33,286 bases of DNA from an uncultured Candidatus Saccharibacteria bacterium (GTDB lineage Bacteria; Patescibacteriota; Saccharimonadia; Saccharimonadales; Saccharimonadaceae): assembly GCA_947367565.1 (NCBI GenBank), contig CANBEI010000008.1:1-33286 (forward strand), in the 5' to 3' direction. Shown one piece after another: positions 3,736-32,742 of this stretch. The notes under the pieces are model-generated. The model worked only from the letters and a program-made list of their open reading frames with translations, searched no databases and was not told where the DNA came from. The position numbers were made by a program, and so were the translations under genes. How positions within the stretch are numbered: the stretch's first letter is position 1; each line of letters begins with the position of its first letter.

Positions 3736-4305
3736 ATGACAAAAACAAAAAAACAAAATTCAACTACTAATGCTCAGCACCGTTTACCGCTTTATCGCCG
3801 AGCCTGGTTTTTGATGCTAGTTATTATCGTGATTATCGCTGCTATTGTTTGTACTATTATTTTTCTAGTTAAACCTGGCCAGCAGCCAGACGCCATCAAA
3901 GATAGTGACGCCGCGCAAAATGATATTTCTGAGTCTCAAGCACCTATAGACGACGGCCAACATATTGATGAGGATGAACCTTATTCTGATCCCGACCAAG
4001 TTACCATCCAATACGAAGGCGAGAATCCTAATCGCTCTAACGAACTGAGCGGTAGTATCACTTACGCTTCACACGACGGTATTGGTACTATGATTAATCA
4101 ATACCTTAGCGAGGGCAGTTGTGAACTTAAGCTTACCGGCAGCAACGGTCAGATCTATACTGCTACGTCTAACATTTTTGCGGCTGCTTCAACCTCGGCT
4201 TGCGGTGACTTTAATATTGATGTTATACCTGGCGTCTATCAGATTGAAATTACTCTCATTAGTGGCGATAAGCAGGGAACTATTACGGGAGAGTATAGCC
4301 TATGA
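3736..4305 (+). CDS. Membrane-anchored extracytoplasmic protein of unknown function
   Basis: I do not recognise this 189-residue protein. A basic N-terminus is followed by one strong membrane helix (about residues 26-47, FLMLVIIVIIAAIVCTIIFL), then an acidic linker (DAIKDSDAAQNDIS...) and a C-terminal domain of about 95 residues. That domain is rich in beta-prone segments (GSITYAS, CELKLTGSNGQIYTA, YQIEITLISG) and has two cysteines, C132 and C153, that could form a disulfide outside the cell. It overlaps the next gene by ATGA (4302-4305), so the two are translationally coupled, which suggests it assists or accompanies the lectin protein. It could be a small beta-sandwich surface protein; the fold is inference only. 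Confidence 0.75.
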   Translation: MTKTKKQNSTTNAQHRLPLYRRAWFLMLVIIVIIAAIVCTIIFLVKPGQQPDAIKDSDAAQNDISESQAPIDDGQHIDEDEPYSDPDQVTIQYEGENPNRSNELSGSITYASHDGIGTMINQYLSEGSCELKLTGSNGQIYTATSNIFAAASTSACGDFNIDVIPGVYQIEITLISGDKQGTITGEYSL

Positions 4306-6470
4306 GTTTGAAATTAGATTATAAAGCATTAAAAAAGTATCGTCTTACGGTTTTTACTGTTTTCGTTTTCTGTATGATGGCGAGTTTTGGTTTTTTCGCA
4401 ATGCGTGGTATGCAAAAGACCTCTGCCGCTTCAACCGCCGGATTTAGTGCTGGCAACATTATTAGTGATGCCGTAATGTCAAATTATAACTCCATGTCGG
4501 TTAGCGATATTCAAAACTTTCTCACATCTAAGAATCCTTGCAACGATTACGACTATAATAAATACCTGCGCCTAAAGGCCGCTTATCCGAATAATAGTTG
4601 GCATTTTGAGAACGGTCACTTCATCTGTCTTTCCGAAGAGCGTTTCGGCGATGGCGAGGTAATTGGTTCTGGCCAAACGGCCGCTGAAATCATTCATCAG
4701 GCCGCCCAAGATTATAAGATCAACCCCCAGGTCCTCCTCGTATTACTCCAGAAAGAGCAAGGCTTAATTACGGATACCTACCCAAACCAGGTTCAGTATC
4801 GAGCCGCTACTGGTTTTGGTTGTCCCGACACTGCCGCTTGTAGCACCAAATATTATGGCTTCAAGAATCAGGTTCGCAATGCTGCTAGTATGTTCCGTGA
4901 AGTTTTAAATGGTGGCTGGTCTAATTACCCCGCCTATAAAACGGTTTATGTCCAGTATAATCCTAATCCTGGTTGCGGTGGTACGAATGTCTATATCGAG
5001 AACCGCGCCACCTCTGCCCTCTACCGCTATACGCCATATCAGCCAAACGCCTCCGCTTTGAACGCTGGTTATGGTACGGGCGACGTTTGTGGTGCTTATG
5101 GTAACCGTAATTTCTACCTTTATTTTATGGATTGGTTCGGCAGCACACAAGTATCCGTAGATGGCGTCGTAGCAGATATCCCAGAAGGAGTGTACAGTTT
5201 CGCCCCAATCTCTAACATTAAAGCCAGATTAGGTGTTCAGGGTAAAAATGTTCAGCTGACTGACTCCGATCAATGGAATGTTAAGCGCGAAAGTGATGGT
5301 TATTATACTTTAACCCACTTAGGTAGCGGTGAAGTTTTAGACGTGGACAATGCTAGTATGGAGCAGGGCACCAATATTCAGACCTGGTTTAGTAATGGTA
5401 CGTGTGCGCAGAAATGGAAGATTTTTCGTACATCTGGCGGCGGGTTGACTTTTGAGTCTGCCTGTATGCCTGGGATGGTTATTGACATGAGTAACGCCAG
5501 CTCATCTATAGGTACAAATATTCAGCTTTGGCTAACCAACAACACTAATGCTCAAAAATTCCAGTTATATACCGGTCAAACCGTTGCAGACGGATATTAC
5601 ACAATTCGTAGTATGAAGGATAGTGGACGTTCTATAGATGTTTCTGGCGGAAAGAACCAAAACAAAGACAACATTCAACTTTGGTTTAGTAACAATACAG
5701 AAGCTCAAAAGTGGCATGTGGAGTATCTCGCAAATACAGATTCCTATAGCATCCGTAATGCGGCGACCGGGCGAGCTATTGATCTTGACAATGCGAGTGT
5801 TCGTACCGGTGCTAATATTCAGCTATATGACTATAACGGCACATGCGCACAGCGTTGGAAATTCATTCCAAATAACGACGGGAGCTATACGATTGCCTCG
5901 GCTTGCGCCGTAGACTATACTATAGATCTCAGCAGTGGCATACCGTCTGATGGCGCCAACATTCAACTTTGGTTTAGTAACAATACGGAAGCTCAACATT
6001 GGAAATTCGTTCAGTGGGAACAAGCGATTCCTGACGGTGTCTATACAATTCATAGCGGATTACAATCTGGCCAAGTTCTTGACGTCGCCTCAGCCCAAGA
6101 CCGTAACGGTGCCAACATTCAACTTTGGTTTAGCAATGACACTGATGCTCAAAAATGGCAAATTACTTATAACCGCGCCACAGATAGTTACGCTATTCGT
6201 AATGTGATGTCGGGCAAAGCACTTGACCTAGTGAATAGCAGTACTTATAGCGGCAATAATATTCAGCTCTACGATCATAACCCCCAAGTTTGCGCTCAGG
6301 ACTGGAAGCTTACTCTCCGCACTACTGATTATTACAGTTTATCGTCAGCTTGCAATACGGGGTACGCTATCGATTCCCAAAACGGCGACAGCTATAGTGG
6401 CAACAATATTCAACTATGGTTTGACAACGGCACTAACGCTCAAATTTGGCAATTTGTTCCTAGTCACTAG
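4302..6470 (+). CDS. Large secreted ricin B-type lectin protein with N-terminal hydrolase-like domain
   Basis: This 722-residue protein begins with a basic stretch and a hydrophobic segment (about 14-36) followed by SAAS, a signal peptide or anchor. Residues about 48-285 form a domain I recall from Saccharibacteria and Actinobacteria secreted proteins (AGNIISDAVM, INPQVLLVLLQKEQGLIT, ATGFGCPDTA, YGTGDVCGAYGNRNF). It is often annotated as hemagglutinin- or muramidase-like, but its activity is unproven. From about 290 to the end are repeated ricin-type beta-trefoil units with QxW signatures (IQLWFSNNTEAQKW and variants, at least eight), making about three lectin domains. It probably binds glycans on the host or on the cell itself. 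It is translationally coupled to the preceding membrane protein. Confidence 0.9.
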   Translation: MSLKLDYKALKKYRLTVFTVFVFCMMASFGFFAMRGMQKTSAASTAGFSAGNIISDAVMSNYNSMSVSDIQNFLTSKNPCNDYDYNKYLRLKAAYPNNSWHFENGHFICLSEERFGDGEVIGSGQTAAEIIHQAAQDYKINPQVLLVLLQKEQGLITDTYPNQVQYRAATGFGCPDTAACSTKYYGFKNQVRNAASMFREVLNGGWSNYPAYKTVYVQYNPNPGCGGTNVYIENRATSALYRYTPYQPNASALNAGYGTGDVCGAYGNRNFYLYFMDWFGSTQVSVDGVVADIPEGVYSFAPISNIKARLGVQGKNVQLTDSDQWNVKRESDGYYTLTHLGSGEVLDVDNASMEQGTNIQTWFSNGTCAQKWKIFRTSGGGLTFESACMPGMVIDMSNASSSIGTNIQLWLTNNTNAQKFQLYTGQTVADGYYTIRSMKDSGRSIDVSGGKNQNKDNIQLWFSNNTEAQKWHVEYLANTDSYSIRNAATGRAIDLDNASVRTGANIQLYDYNGTCAQRWKFIPNNDGSYTIASACAVDYTIDLSSGIPSDGANIQLWFSNNTEAQHWKFVQWEQAIPDGVYTIHSGLQSGQVLDVASAQDRNGANIQLWFSNDTDAQKWQITYNRATDSYAIRNVMSGKALDLVNSSTYSGNNIQLYDHNPQVCAQDWKLTLRTTDYYSLSSACNTGYAIDSQNGDSYSGNNIQLWFDNGTNAQIWQFVPSH
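5370..6457 (+). repeat. Internal repeats encoding ricin QxW units
   Basis: The trefoil units are also repeated at DNA level. The 39 bases starting at 5670 and at 5958 differ at one position, and the copy starting at 6113 shares their first 20 bases. Such similarity, including third codon positions, points to recent duplication or gene conversion rather than old domain repeats. Confidence 0.85.
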
Positions 6471-16940: not shown

Positions 16941-18818
16941 ATGAAATACCTCAAGCGTTTTCTCATCGTCCTCGTCTACCTCTTGCCGGCCGCCCTCTAT
17001 TGTAGCTACTATCCTATTATCAAGCTCGGCGAAACCAACTCCATGAACTTCGAACTCTCCCTCCCCCTGATTTGGCTTGTATTGTTTGACATCGTCTCCT
17101 TCATTAGCCTGATAGGGATAGGGAAGAAACGTCGGTCGCATACGTCTTCTAAGAAACTCTCCGCGACCAACGGGGAGCGGGCGAAGCAAGGAGTCCCCGT
17201 AACGACGGGCGACGACGAAGCGGGTTTCGTAAAGACGCATGCGACCGACGTTTCTTTAGCTATTTCCGATCGGCGTTTTTTCCTCTTCTCCCTTTTCCCA
17301 TTTTTCGCCACCCTTTCCATCTTCTGGTCCGCAAACCCTACTCGTGCCATCCTTACCGCCGGCATTATTTGGCTAGTTTTCTTTGCCGTATTCTCTTTAA
17401 TCTACGTTTTGCCCCTCCTAGAATTACCGGGGAATTTTAAACGCAATTGCCTCCGCAGTTTTTTCATCGCCTCGGTCATTGCCTGTTTGATTTGCTGGAT
17501 TCAATGCCTCCTCGACATCGCCGGCCTCGCTCGCGAGACCACCCTCATGTGCCGCGGCTGTACCTATCTCTCTTTTGGCTTTCCGCACCCTTCCGGCCTC
17601 GCCATCGAACCTCAATTCATGGGCAACCTCCTCCTCGCCCCTACTCTAACCTCCCTCTATCTCCTGATTTTTAATGTGCAAAGTGGAGGAGAAAAGAAGA
17701 GTCTTGTCATGTTGTGTATTCTTTTCTCCTCCACCCTCTTCCTTACCTTCTCCCGCGGCGCCATTTACGCTTACGCTGTCGCGCTTGTAATCATGCTTAT
17801 TTTTGCCATTCGCCGCCATGTTTTCCGCGCCAGCCTAGTTGCTATCCCGATTGCGACCTTCCTCGCGATTACCGGCATCCAAGGTATTTTTACTGTCATT
17901 GGCCCCACTCACGGCAGCTTCATCGATGGCGTTTCTAAATCAATCCACCAGCTCTCTCTTGGCATTATCGACATTCGCCCCAAATCTCCGTCAGTAAGCG
18001 TTGAAGACTCCTCAGAATCCACCCCTGTTAGCTCCCCAGAAGCCCCAGAGTCGCCCTCTGATTCCGGACCTTCCACGGATCAAGCCTCAACGGAAGCTAC
18101 CCCAGAAGAGCCCGAAAATGCCGAAAATCAGCCCTATTTCGAGGGTTATGTCGCCGAATCCACCACCGCTCGCCTTAATCTTAATAGAGCGGCCCTCGAC
18201 ACCTGGCTTTCCGCCCCCGGACACGCCGAATCTAGCCTGAGTATTGGCCTCCATTGTCATTTCTTCTTGCCTGGAACGGGGCCCGCCTGCACCGCTTCCG
18301 TTCCGCTTACTCCGACTAGCGTTCTCTTTGGCGTCGGTCTCGGAGGCGCTGGTACCGCTATGTATCTTAATTCTTTCATCACAGATATCAACAGTCCGAA
18401 AGAAATTGTCCAACATCAAGGCTTCTCCCTACTCCTTGAGCTCGGTCTCGTTGGCATCGCTCTGGCCATTTTCTCTCTGTTAATTGCCTTCTTCCCGCAG
18501 TTTTTCTCTCGTCGCTTCCTCGACGGCAAAGCTGCCAAAGTTCCTGAAAGTACCCAGAAGTCTGAAAAAATCTCCGAAACCGCCAAAAATCCTGCCCAAA
18601 AAGCTCCACCCAGCCCTTTTTGGCGACACCCCGCCCTGCCTCTGCTCGCTGCCCTGATTATTGCCTATCTCGTCACGCTCAATTTCTTCTCCGGTCTCCC
18701 CAATGCTCTCCAAATATACCTCATGCCACCTCTGTTGTACTATATATTCGTCGACGACTCTGCTTCACGAGATGTCAAAAAGCCCAAAAAAGCCCTTGCG
18801 CGAAGCTCCAATGCGTGA
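16941..18818 (+). CDS. O-antigen ligase/polymerase-like (Wzy/WaaL) membrane protein, with a repeat-element insertion
   Basis: The 625-residue protein has many hydrophobic helices and a large extracytoplasmic loop, the layout of Wzy polymerases and O-antigen ligases. FLTFSRGAIYAYAVALVIML matches the Wzy_C-like signature (S-R-G/S). The extended loop (about 350-490) contains a Ser/Pro/Glu-rich low-complexity stretch and several cysteines (LHCHFFLPGTGPACTAS), then GVGLGGAGTAMYL and HQGFSLLLELGLVGIAL, as expected for the family. Two hydrophilic insertions stand out: residues about 62-105, encoded by a 129-base hairpin element, and a Lys/Pro-rich loop at about 534-560. Function is likely polymerisation or transfer of the lipid-linked glycan; the two cannot be separated by sequence. 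Its last codons overlap the tRNA promoter. Confidence 0.85.
   Translation: MKYLKRFLIVLVYLLPAALYCSYYPIIKLGETNSMNFELSLPLIWLVLFDIVSFISLIGIGKKRRSHTSSKKLSATNGERAKQGVPVTTGDDEAGFVKTHATDVSLAISDRRFFLFSLFPFFATLSIFWSANPTRAILTAGIIWLVFFAVFSLIYVLPLLELPGNFKRNCLRSFFIASVIACLICWIQCLLDIAGLARETTLMCRGCTYLSFGFPHPSGLAIEPQFMGNLLLAPTLTSLYLLIFNVQSGGEKKSLVMLCILFSSTLFLTFSRGAIYAYAVALVIMLIFAIRRHVFRASLVAIPIATFLAITGIQGIFTVIGPTHGSFIDGVSKSIHQLSLGIIDIRPKSPSVSVEDSSESTPVSSPEAPESPSDSGPSTDQASTEATPEEPENAENQPYFEGYVAESTTARLNLNRAALDTWLSAPGHAESSLSIGLHCHFFLPGTGPACTASVPLTPTSVLFGVGLGGAGTAMYLNSFITDINSPKEIVQHQGFSLLLELGLVGIALAIFSLLIAFFPQFFSRRFLDGKAAKVPESTQKSEKISETAKNPAQKAPPSPFWRHPALPLLAALIIAYLVTLNFFSGLPNALQIYLMPPLLYYIFVDDSASRDVKKPKKALARSSNA
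17124..17256. repeat. Hairpin repeat element, copy 1 (inside coding sequence)
   Basis: The arms at 17126-17148 and 17232-17254 are complementary over 23 bases with one mismatch, and pairing continues two bases outward. Inside, GAAACTC pairs with GGGTTTC. The apex carries GCGACCAACGGGGAGCG, the mini-hairpin GCGAAGC and the hairpin CCCGT-AACG-ACGGG, all of which recur in copy 2 (26557-26706). The 129-base core is exactly 43 codons and keeps the host frame open. Confidence 0.8.
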
Positions 18819-20611: not shown

Positions 20612-20640
20612 TTGACTTTTTCGCCAATCTGTGCTACAAT
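20612..20640 (+). promoter_or_regulatory. Promoter of the conserved-spacer family, copy P1
   Basis: TTGACT (20612-20617), 17-base spacer ending CTGTGC, TACAAT (20635-20640). The spacer resembles those of the promoters at 24116, 24430 and 32708. The following leader (to 20726) has AGGGG/CCCCCT pairing around an AGGC/GCCT stem, a 10-codon open frame at 20655-20687, and ends in a GGAGGAG ribosome binding site. Confidence 0.75.
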
Positions 20641-20726
20641 GAAAGAATAAGCACATGAGGGGAGTACTTAGGCATATTAACAGATAGCCTTCTACCCCCT
20701 CCGACATAAAAAGGAGGAGAATAAAA

Positions 20727-24429: not shown

Positions 24430-24458
24430 TTGACATTTTCACTAATCCGTGCTACAAT
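24430..24458 (+). promoter_or_regulatory. Promoter of the conserved-spacer family, copy P2
   Basis: TTGACA (24430-24435), 17-base spacer ending CCGTGC, TACAAT (24453-24458). It starts the structured leader of the Nudix operon. Confidence 0.78.
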
Positions 24459-24464
24459 AATAGC

Positions 24465-26476: not shown

Positions 26477-26487
26477 TTTGCTATAAT
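26459..26487 (+). promoter_or_regulatory. dnaK promoter
   Basis: TTGCCA (26459-26464, inside CIRCE 1), 17 bases, TGC-TATAAT (-10 at 26482-26487). The start near 26494 lies just before CIRCE 2, so both operators would block initiation. Confidence 0.8.
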
Positions 26488-26495
26488 CAGGGTAA

Positions 26496-26522
26496 TTAGC
26501 ACTGTTGACACATGAGTGCTAA
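26496..26522. promoter_or_regulatory. CIRCE operator 2 upstream of dnaK
   Basis: TTAGCACTG, nine bases, GAGTGCTAA: one mismatch from consensus. It lies at the predicted transcription start and would also be at the 5' end of the mRNA. Confidence 0.93.
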
Positions 26523-26556
26523 TGATATATTATTGTGAATAGAATCTGTTATTTAA

Positions 26557-26706
26557 AAATACAGTCGTCGGTGACTGGACTACGGTTCTTTTCAGGACTC
26601 TTCGCGACCAACGGGGAGCGAGCGAAGCGCAGGCCCGCCCGTAACGACGGGACGGGTCAAGCGGGTCCTGAAAAGGATGGTAGTCCAGCTACCTCCGTCT
26701 GTATTT
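26557..26706. repeat. Hairpin repeat element, copy 2 (dnaK 5' UTR)
   Basis: Arms 26557-26600 and 26663-26706 are 44 bases each and complementary apart from about nine positions, including the unbroken blocks CTGGACTAC and CTTTTCAGGAC. The apex shares GCGACCAACGGGGAGCG, GCGAAGC, CCCGTAACGACGGG and AAGCGGGT with copy 1 at 17124-17256, while the arms differ. It fills most of the dnaK leader and ends 8 bases before the ribosome binding site. Confidence 0.82.
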
Positions 26707-26725
26707 ATTAAAGAAAGGAAATCAT

Positions 26726-28627
<1,902 letters not shown>

Positions 28628-32707: not shown

Positions 32708-32736
32708 TTGACATTTTCATCAACCTGTGCTACAAT
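32708..32736 (+). promoter_or_regulatory. Promoter of the conserved-spacer family, copy P3
   Basis: TTGACA (32708-32713), 17-base spacer ending CTGTGC, TACAAT (32731-32736). It drives the short terminated transcript at 32743-32837. Confidence 0.8.
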
Positions 32737-32742
32737 AAAACT

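Follow-up and report, generated by a model that had tools for sequence, protein, structure and literature searches.

The window, that is, the whole stretch of 33,286 nucleotides that was analysed, belongs to an uncultured Candidatus Saccharibacteria bacterium and carries the gene dnaK. The following features are located at and upstream of this gene:

26496..26522, plus strand: presumed CIRCE-like HrcA operator, TTAGCACTG-N9-GAGTGCTAA, overlapping the promoter (sequence)
26505..26533, plus strand: predicted sigma-70-type promoter, TTGACA-17-TATTAT (consensus match only)
26552..26598, plus strand: left arm of the hairpin, P1 (inverted-repeat search, RNA fold, covariation)
26603..26620, plus strand: tip hairpin P2 (fold and alignment of copies; stem variants with two-sided changes)
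26632..26658, plus strand: tip hairpin P3, limits approximate (fold and alignment of copies)
26665..26711, plus strand: right arm of the hairpin, P1 (inverted-repeat search, RNA fold, covariation)
26710..26719, plus strand: Shine-Dalgarno region AAAGAAAGGA, outside the main stem (sequence, fold)
26726..28627, plus strand: dnaK (NCBIfam TIGR02350, E 6e-287; NF001413, E 1e-294)

The inverted repeat at 26496..26522 resembles the CIRCE operator of HrcA, and relatives have an inverted repeat of this kind ahead of their dnaK as well (by eye). Transcription of dnaK probably starts near 26540. With such a start the hairpin, which extends from 26552 to 26711, would make up about 86% and thus nearly all of the predicted leader, in agreement with an earlier note that had described a copy of an element forming most of the dnaK 5′ UTR. 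Elsewhere in the window, a 33-nt promoter-like repeat (TTGACATTTTC...TGTGCTACAATA) is found three times ahead of genes (20612-20644, 24430-24462 and 32708-32740).

The analysis confirmed that the inverted repeat at dnaK is a real hairpin, slightly longer than first stated. The same note had given it paired arms of 44 bases; the inverted repeat is present, with ungapped arms of 47 nt according to the inverted-repeat search, and its pairing is imperfect (79% complementary). The RNA fold of 26545-26725 has a predicted energy of -94.1 kcal/mol compared to -52.2 +/- 4.6 for shuffled sequences (z -9.2), and none of 200 shuffles folded as well. P2 is built from CGC, a tandem G.A, CC, the loop AACG, GG, a second tandem G.A and GCG. 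All three apex motifs named before are located in the tip: the 17-mer GCGACCAACGGGGAGCG at 26604-26620, GCGAAGC at 26622-26628 and CCCGTAACGACGGG at 26638-26651, the latter being the conserved end of P3. GCGAAGC is not conserved among the copies of relatives.

A second copy of the element lies inside a long reading frame of the window:

16941..18818, plus strand: open reading frame of 625 amino acids, host of the other copy (ORF listing)
17124..17256, plus strand: other copy of the element, in frame in the host reading frame (inverted-repeat and motif search)

Its arms (17124-17148 and 17232-17256) are 25 nt long and 96% complementary, its 17-mer is located at 17163-17179, and no Pfam family matches the host reading frame at E <= 1e-6. 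Another repeat in the window, at 5367-6447, consists of six degenerate 49-nt units within the reading frame 4302-6470 and codes for a repeated motif resembling NIQLWFSNNTxAQ.

With up to three mismatches the 17-mer matches twice in the window, where 0.12 matches are expected; nine exact copies occur in the 914-kb genome, compared to none for the reversed control. The covariance model R1, built from 50 of 87 cores that were aligned, detects the element 16 times in the window genome and matches 109 of 118 genomes from the same genus. When a sample of the order was searched, the model matched 21 of 197 genomes, which belong to three of 122 genera, all from one family. A longer form of the 17-mer (up to two mismatches) was found in 14 of 99 genomes including the window genome, all from the same genus. 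A search of 84,980 GTDB species with a strict tip pattern returned 91 stretches; the 80 listed by name come from Candidatus Saccharibacteria, often sampled in ruminant gut, except for three chance matches without a hairpin (L040 in Bacteroidales, L047 and L100 in Geomonas). The element has a core of about 90 nt plus arms, altogether 120-160 nt, and it was absent from the phages, plasmids and viral contigs searched, which speaks against an origin from a phage or plasmid. In the preferred reading, which has a probability of roughly two in three, the dnaK hairpin is one of many copies of a palindromic DNA element that is dispersed in gut Saccharibacteria, specific to this lineage, and similar in its way of life to the palindromic elements found in coding sequence of Rickettsia.

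For the analyses below, 98 copies were used, namely the 102 found minus the three chance matches and L017, which has an enlarged P3; copies that shared the same 120-nt core counted as one, and eight with short recovered arms were kept. These 98 were picked by a fixed tip pattern, and the invariance of the tip in this set is therefore partly by construction. In the window genome, three copies (L001, L009 and L235) are located between apparently convergent copies of one gene family, and part of their very long stem may derive from the flanking genes. The gap between groES and groEL contains, in another genus of the family, two of the element's hairpins, inverted relative to each other (L228, 4229-4675; L229, 4189-4636); the identity of groES and groEL at L228 was confirmed by models, making this a second heat-shock locus with the element.

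Most copies are located in frame inside genes. Altogether, 72 of the 98 lie in reading frames that stay open for 180 codons or more (47 in the direction of the host gene and 25 against it), and 57 have at least 40 codons on either side; frames of both strands are used (by eye). Host proteins identified by model are AlaS, TsaD, TypA, ArgS, TruB, UvrB, RecX, PriA, a TatD-family nuclease, Tgt, PheT, ValS, TsaE and LepA; in GyrA and MiaA, likewise identified by model, the insert precedes the domain, and in Fmt it sits at the start. Names of host genes beyond those confirmed by model are our assumption. Since the frames stay open across copies, translational bypass or splicing is unlikely.

Comparison with relatives reveals empty sites. 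The relevant alaS segment is 234 nt long in the window genome and 108-111 nt in seven relatives, and the empty site contains neither arm, which rules out that the arms were copied from the target at alaS. At fmt of genome G040 the right arm holds a possible fmt start codon (by eye), so that this arm may be host-derived. The tsaD segment measures 96-135 nt in 20 fetched relatives; 33 other loci, including two duplicates, have 168-285 nt here. This site is filled by several hairpin families and is a shared hot spot, because in other species (L168, L178, L180, L182 and L185) the position is taken by an in-frame hairpin from another family (GGACTTGAATTTTCAAGCAC...). A short stem remnant is present in tsaD of L206, which suggests loss of the hairpin by deletion within the stem.

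No mobilising enzyme was found, and a target-site duplication was neither recognised at alaS nor certain at dnaK (by eye). Hairpins with mismatch motifs and the inverted pairs in another genus are reminiscent of REP/BIME-type palindromes moved by a RAYT (Y1) transposase. A Y1_Tnp match was obtained in only five of the 118 genus genomes and not in the window genome (G000), whereas the control matched five of 14 genomes, and the conserved part of the element is the tip. Y1 transposases are thus nearly absent from the genus, the Y1 enzyme was rejected as the mover, and a REP/RAYT system is a highly improbable source of the element.

The dnaK site differs from the other sites in how well it is retained. 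DnaK is present in 111 of the 118 genus genomes, and the leaders of the best 30 loci were read. The hairpin is present in nine of these 30, which are the nine closest including the window genome itself, and absent from the other 21; model R1 gives the same nine of 30. In all nine it sits between the promoter and the Shine-Dalgarno region, and the nearest empty leader among the 30 is L138. The expectation that dnaK leaders of relatives retain the element is thus borne out for the closest ones: the copy is kept in eight of eight clade relatives. Most of the nearest relatives are empty at other sites of the window genome (filled in none of seven read for alaS, one of eight for fmt, one of eight for dnaG, a count from model R1 alone, and two of eight for tsaD). 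This contrast may reflect a useful role at dnaK, or merely an older insertion. A useful role could be that of a cis-acting RNA of the dnaK messenger, acting on mRNA stability or ribosome access, with the element captured and domesticated there. Besides the retention and the constant position in the leader, the related hairpin pair between groES and groEL in another genus and the strong covariation described below favour such a role; the 21 leaders without hairpin, the different tip subfamilies that species carry at dnaK and the coding location of most copies elsewhere speak against it.

Arms of different copies differ in sequence and are still paired, as the earlier note had stated: among nine copies of the window genome the arm identity is 0.56 and 0.55 (0.51 for random 24-mers), compared to 0.85 for the tip. 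Compensatory change had been claimed from the two window copies, which are insufficient by themselves; it is seen in 50 aligned copies, where 17 of 24 pairs show two-sided changes, and in the nine dnaK orthologues. In the latter, 30 of 43 pairs have changed on both sides (26 of 34 in the P1 helix alone). The covariation score at dnaK is 0.48 compared to 0.21 for shuffled alignments (0 of 500 as high), with the structure taken from the same alignment, which favours the score; slid versions reach only 0.16. The covariation that the note asked for is thus strong.

If an RNA were under selection, G-U pairs should greatly outnumber A-C mismatches. The arms of the 98 copies, in a scoring that treats G-T and A-C alike, contain 2286 Watson-Crick pairs, 62 G-T and 53 A-C; this count supersedes one from a looser arm alignment, which ran past the stem ends (191 G-T to 187 A-C). 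On the messenger strand of the 72 coding copies the ratio of G-T to A-C is 31:48, and for the nine leaders of dnaK it is 13:16. When these leaders were counted from their alignment, the ratio was 20:11 under a structure predicted by RNA rules and 24:21 under the fold of the window. In contrast, 21 tRNAs from the same loci show 28:0, a difference that is somewhat inflated, as ARAGORN may disfavour A-C pairs. An excess of G-U over A-C was thus found neither in the 98 copies nor in the 72 coding copies nor in the nine dnaK leaders; of the two marks of a structured RNA, covariation and a preference of G-U over A-C, the element has the first and lacks the second. With 13:16 at dnaK against 28:0 for tRNAs, a role as messenger element becomes rather unlikely.

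Because G-T is not in excess of A-C among the mismatches of the arms, their pairing looks to be kept at the DNA rather than at the RNA level. The reading of paired but different arms as selection on structure, of DNA or RNA, survives in part: the hairpin is dispersed, its arms are compensatory and DNA is favoured; the step to selection on RNA does not follow from this, since DNA-level processes leave the same trace. Upkeep at the DNA level could come about in two ways: a DNA hairpin or cruciform may be under selection, or one arm may serve to repair the other. The second of these two options is part of the best explanation and can be taken further, to arms that are paired by mutation alone, through template switching in quasi-palindromes, with a functionless hairpin and tips homogenised by conversion. 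Symmetric G-T and A-C counts fit such a process, as do the many two-sided P3 changes without G-U intermediates (two pairs of lower P3 vary between GC, CG, UA and AU among the 50 copies, with no G-U cell). In the part of the source available, template switching is proposed for coding palindromes elsewhere (PMC6649704). Mismatches in the dnaK stem persist across species (by eye) and the tandem G.A pairs are kept, both of which speak against arm-to-arm repair as a pervasive process. At alaS there is a weak hint that the stem has grown outward into host codons (0.0135 of shuffles); tsaD gives no such sign (p 0.09 and 0.32). Close pairs of copies have too few changes to tell repair from selection. 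Altogether, purely mutational pairing is conceivable but doubtful.

The earlier note had also suggested that the hairpin could act as an mRNA stabiliser, which it may do, or as an RNA thermometer for dnaK. In favour of a thermometer, the hairpin does lie in a heat-shock leader, and the start codon is predicted to open on warming (openness 0.26 at 25 C and 0.90 at 50 C). The main stem, on the other hand, leaves the Shine-Dalgarno region uncovered, and the predicted openness of that region shows no sharp melting (0.45, 0.46, 0.47 and 0.52 at 25, 37, 42 and 50 C); at 60 C the fold still has -55.9 kcal/mol. Rfam identified only a tRNA in the window and no family at E <= 1 for 26480-26760, and the CIRCE-like operator upstream already offers heat-shock control. 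Together with the G-T to A-C ratio at dnaK, these predictions led us to reject the thermometer; translational control of dnaK by a thermometer is very unlikely, and the copy probably has no specific thermosensing role.

Tips and arms of the element seem to have different histories. Copies in one genome have a tip identity of 0.83 (0.77 for unrelated pairs) and an arm identity of 0.55 (compared to 0.54), whereas copies in the same gene of different genomes reach 0.85 for the tip and 0.66 for the arms, in a comparison that covered copies with neither short arms nor long tips. Among the dnaK copies, similarity of the arms shows no correlation with similarity of the tips (rho -0.14, p 0.41, 36 non-independent pairs). 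Two dnaK copies, L132 and L135, have similar arms (0.87) and less similar tips (0.69), and each of these tips is nearest to a copy at another locus (0.93 and 0.87). The tip of the window's dnaK copy is nearest to that of L009 from the same genome (0.98), compared to 0.82 for the best dnaK orthologue, in a pool of 103 non-dnaK copies and eight orthologues that favours the former and leaves out 13 (three chance matches, three dnaK duplicates and seven odd tips). In two of the nine dnaK copies, L134 and L137, an orthologue still has the nearest tip. Tips of several subfamilies are thus found on related arms, and the disagreement between arm and tip identities at dnaK suggests an exchange of tips on stems that stay in place. 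Tentatively, and with less than even odds, the mobile or convertible unit might be the tip alone, swapped on locus-bound stems that are kept complementary at the DNA level, the body being partly local sequence. Extra short hairpins (e.g., CGCCCCTTGGGACGCGGACGACC), resembling nested insertions, are present inside the P3 loop of L087, L106, L118, L016 and L017.

For the dispersed DNA element as the preferred reading, the following course of events might apply. The element would have entered the leader of dnaK, behind the operator and the promoter, in an ancestor of the window's clade, and would have been kept by each of the nine descendants sampled. The stem would belong to the locus and be inherited with it, its arms drifting fast and staying complementary by a DNA-level process, that is, selection on a hairpin or cruciform or repair from arm to arm. 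The three-way tip (P2 with its tandem G.A and a loop that is mostly NACG, P3 with an end like CCCGTAACGACGGG) would be constrained or homogenised within a genome and could be exchanged on an existing stem.

Among known systems, the Rickettsia palindromic elements (RPE) are similar. The part of their description available reports stem-loops of 105-146 bp, located in frame in conserved genes and between genes (PMC2229807), and the accessible part of another account reports that RPE lose repeat identity over time (PMC6649704). Judged from these partial descriptions, the element shares with RPE its size, the strong stem-loop and the in-frame insertion into conserved protein genes. It is found in a different phylum, and the likeness, drawn from descriptions, is one of way of life. 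In addition, the arms of the Saccharibacteria element are unrelated between copies yet paired, its three-way tip, in which G.A pairs occur in tandem, seems to have an evolution separate from that of the arms, and the element lacks the similarity over the whole length by which RPE family copies are recognised. The coding palindromes of Wolbachia and Methanocaldococcus, as far as the sources at hand describe them, are among the closest known systems as well. In mitochondria of Nematomorpha, inverted repeats are also kept inside translated genes, and template switching has been proposed as their cause; there both arms encode conserved protein and, in the part of the text available, no repeated tip is described (PMC6649704). 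Unlike these palindromes, arms and tip of the Saccharibacteria element are inserted together. MITEs are likewise short, non-autonomous, palindromic and dispersed, but the ends of the element are specific to the locus and its least conserved part, and neither a transposase partner nor a target-site duplication was found. REP/BIME are also dispersed hairpins, sometimes in inverted pairs; the element differs in being mostly coding and in the near absence of a Y1 transposase. An earlier description of the element in Saccharibacteria was not found in the literature searched at the level of titles and beginnings of abstracts. By lifestyle and not by homology, the element may be filed as an addition to the protein-coding palindromic elements.

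Read in this way, the element would show that palindromic elements in coding sequence, for which Rickettsia is the best-known example, also occur in the host-dependent Saccharibacteria of the gut, whose reduced genomes carry it in genes for tRNA synthetases, tRNA modification and translation. The combination of free arms and a fixed tip separates two questions, how the pairing of a stem is kept up and how a palindrome spreads. Moreover, compensatory pairing alone is no proof of an RNA function, and the comparison of G-U with A-C provides a cheap discriminator.
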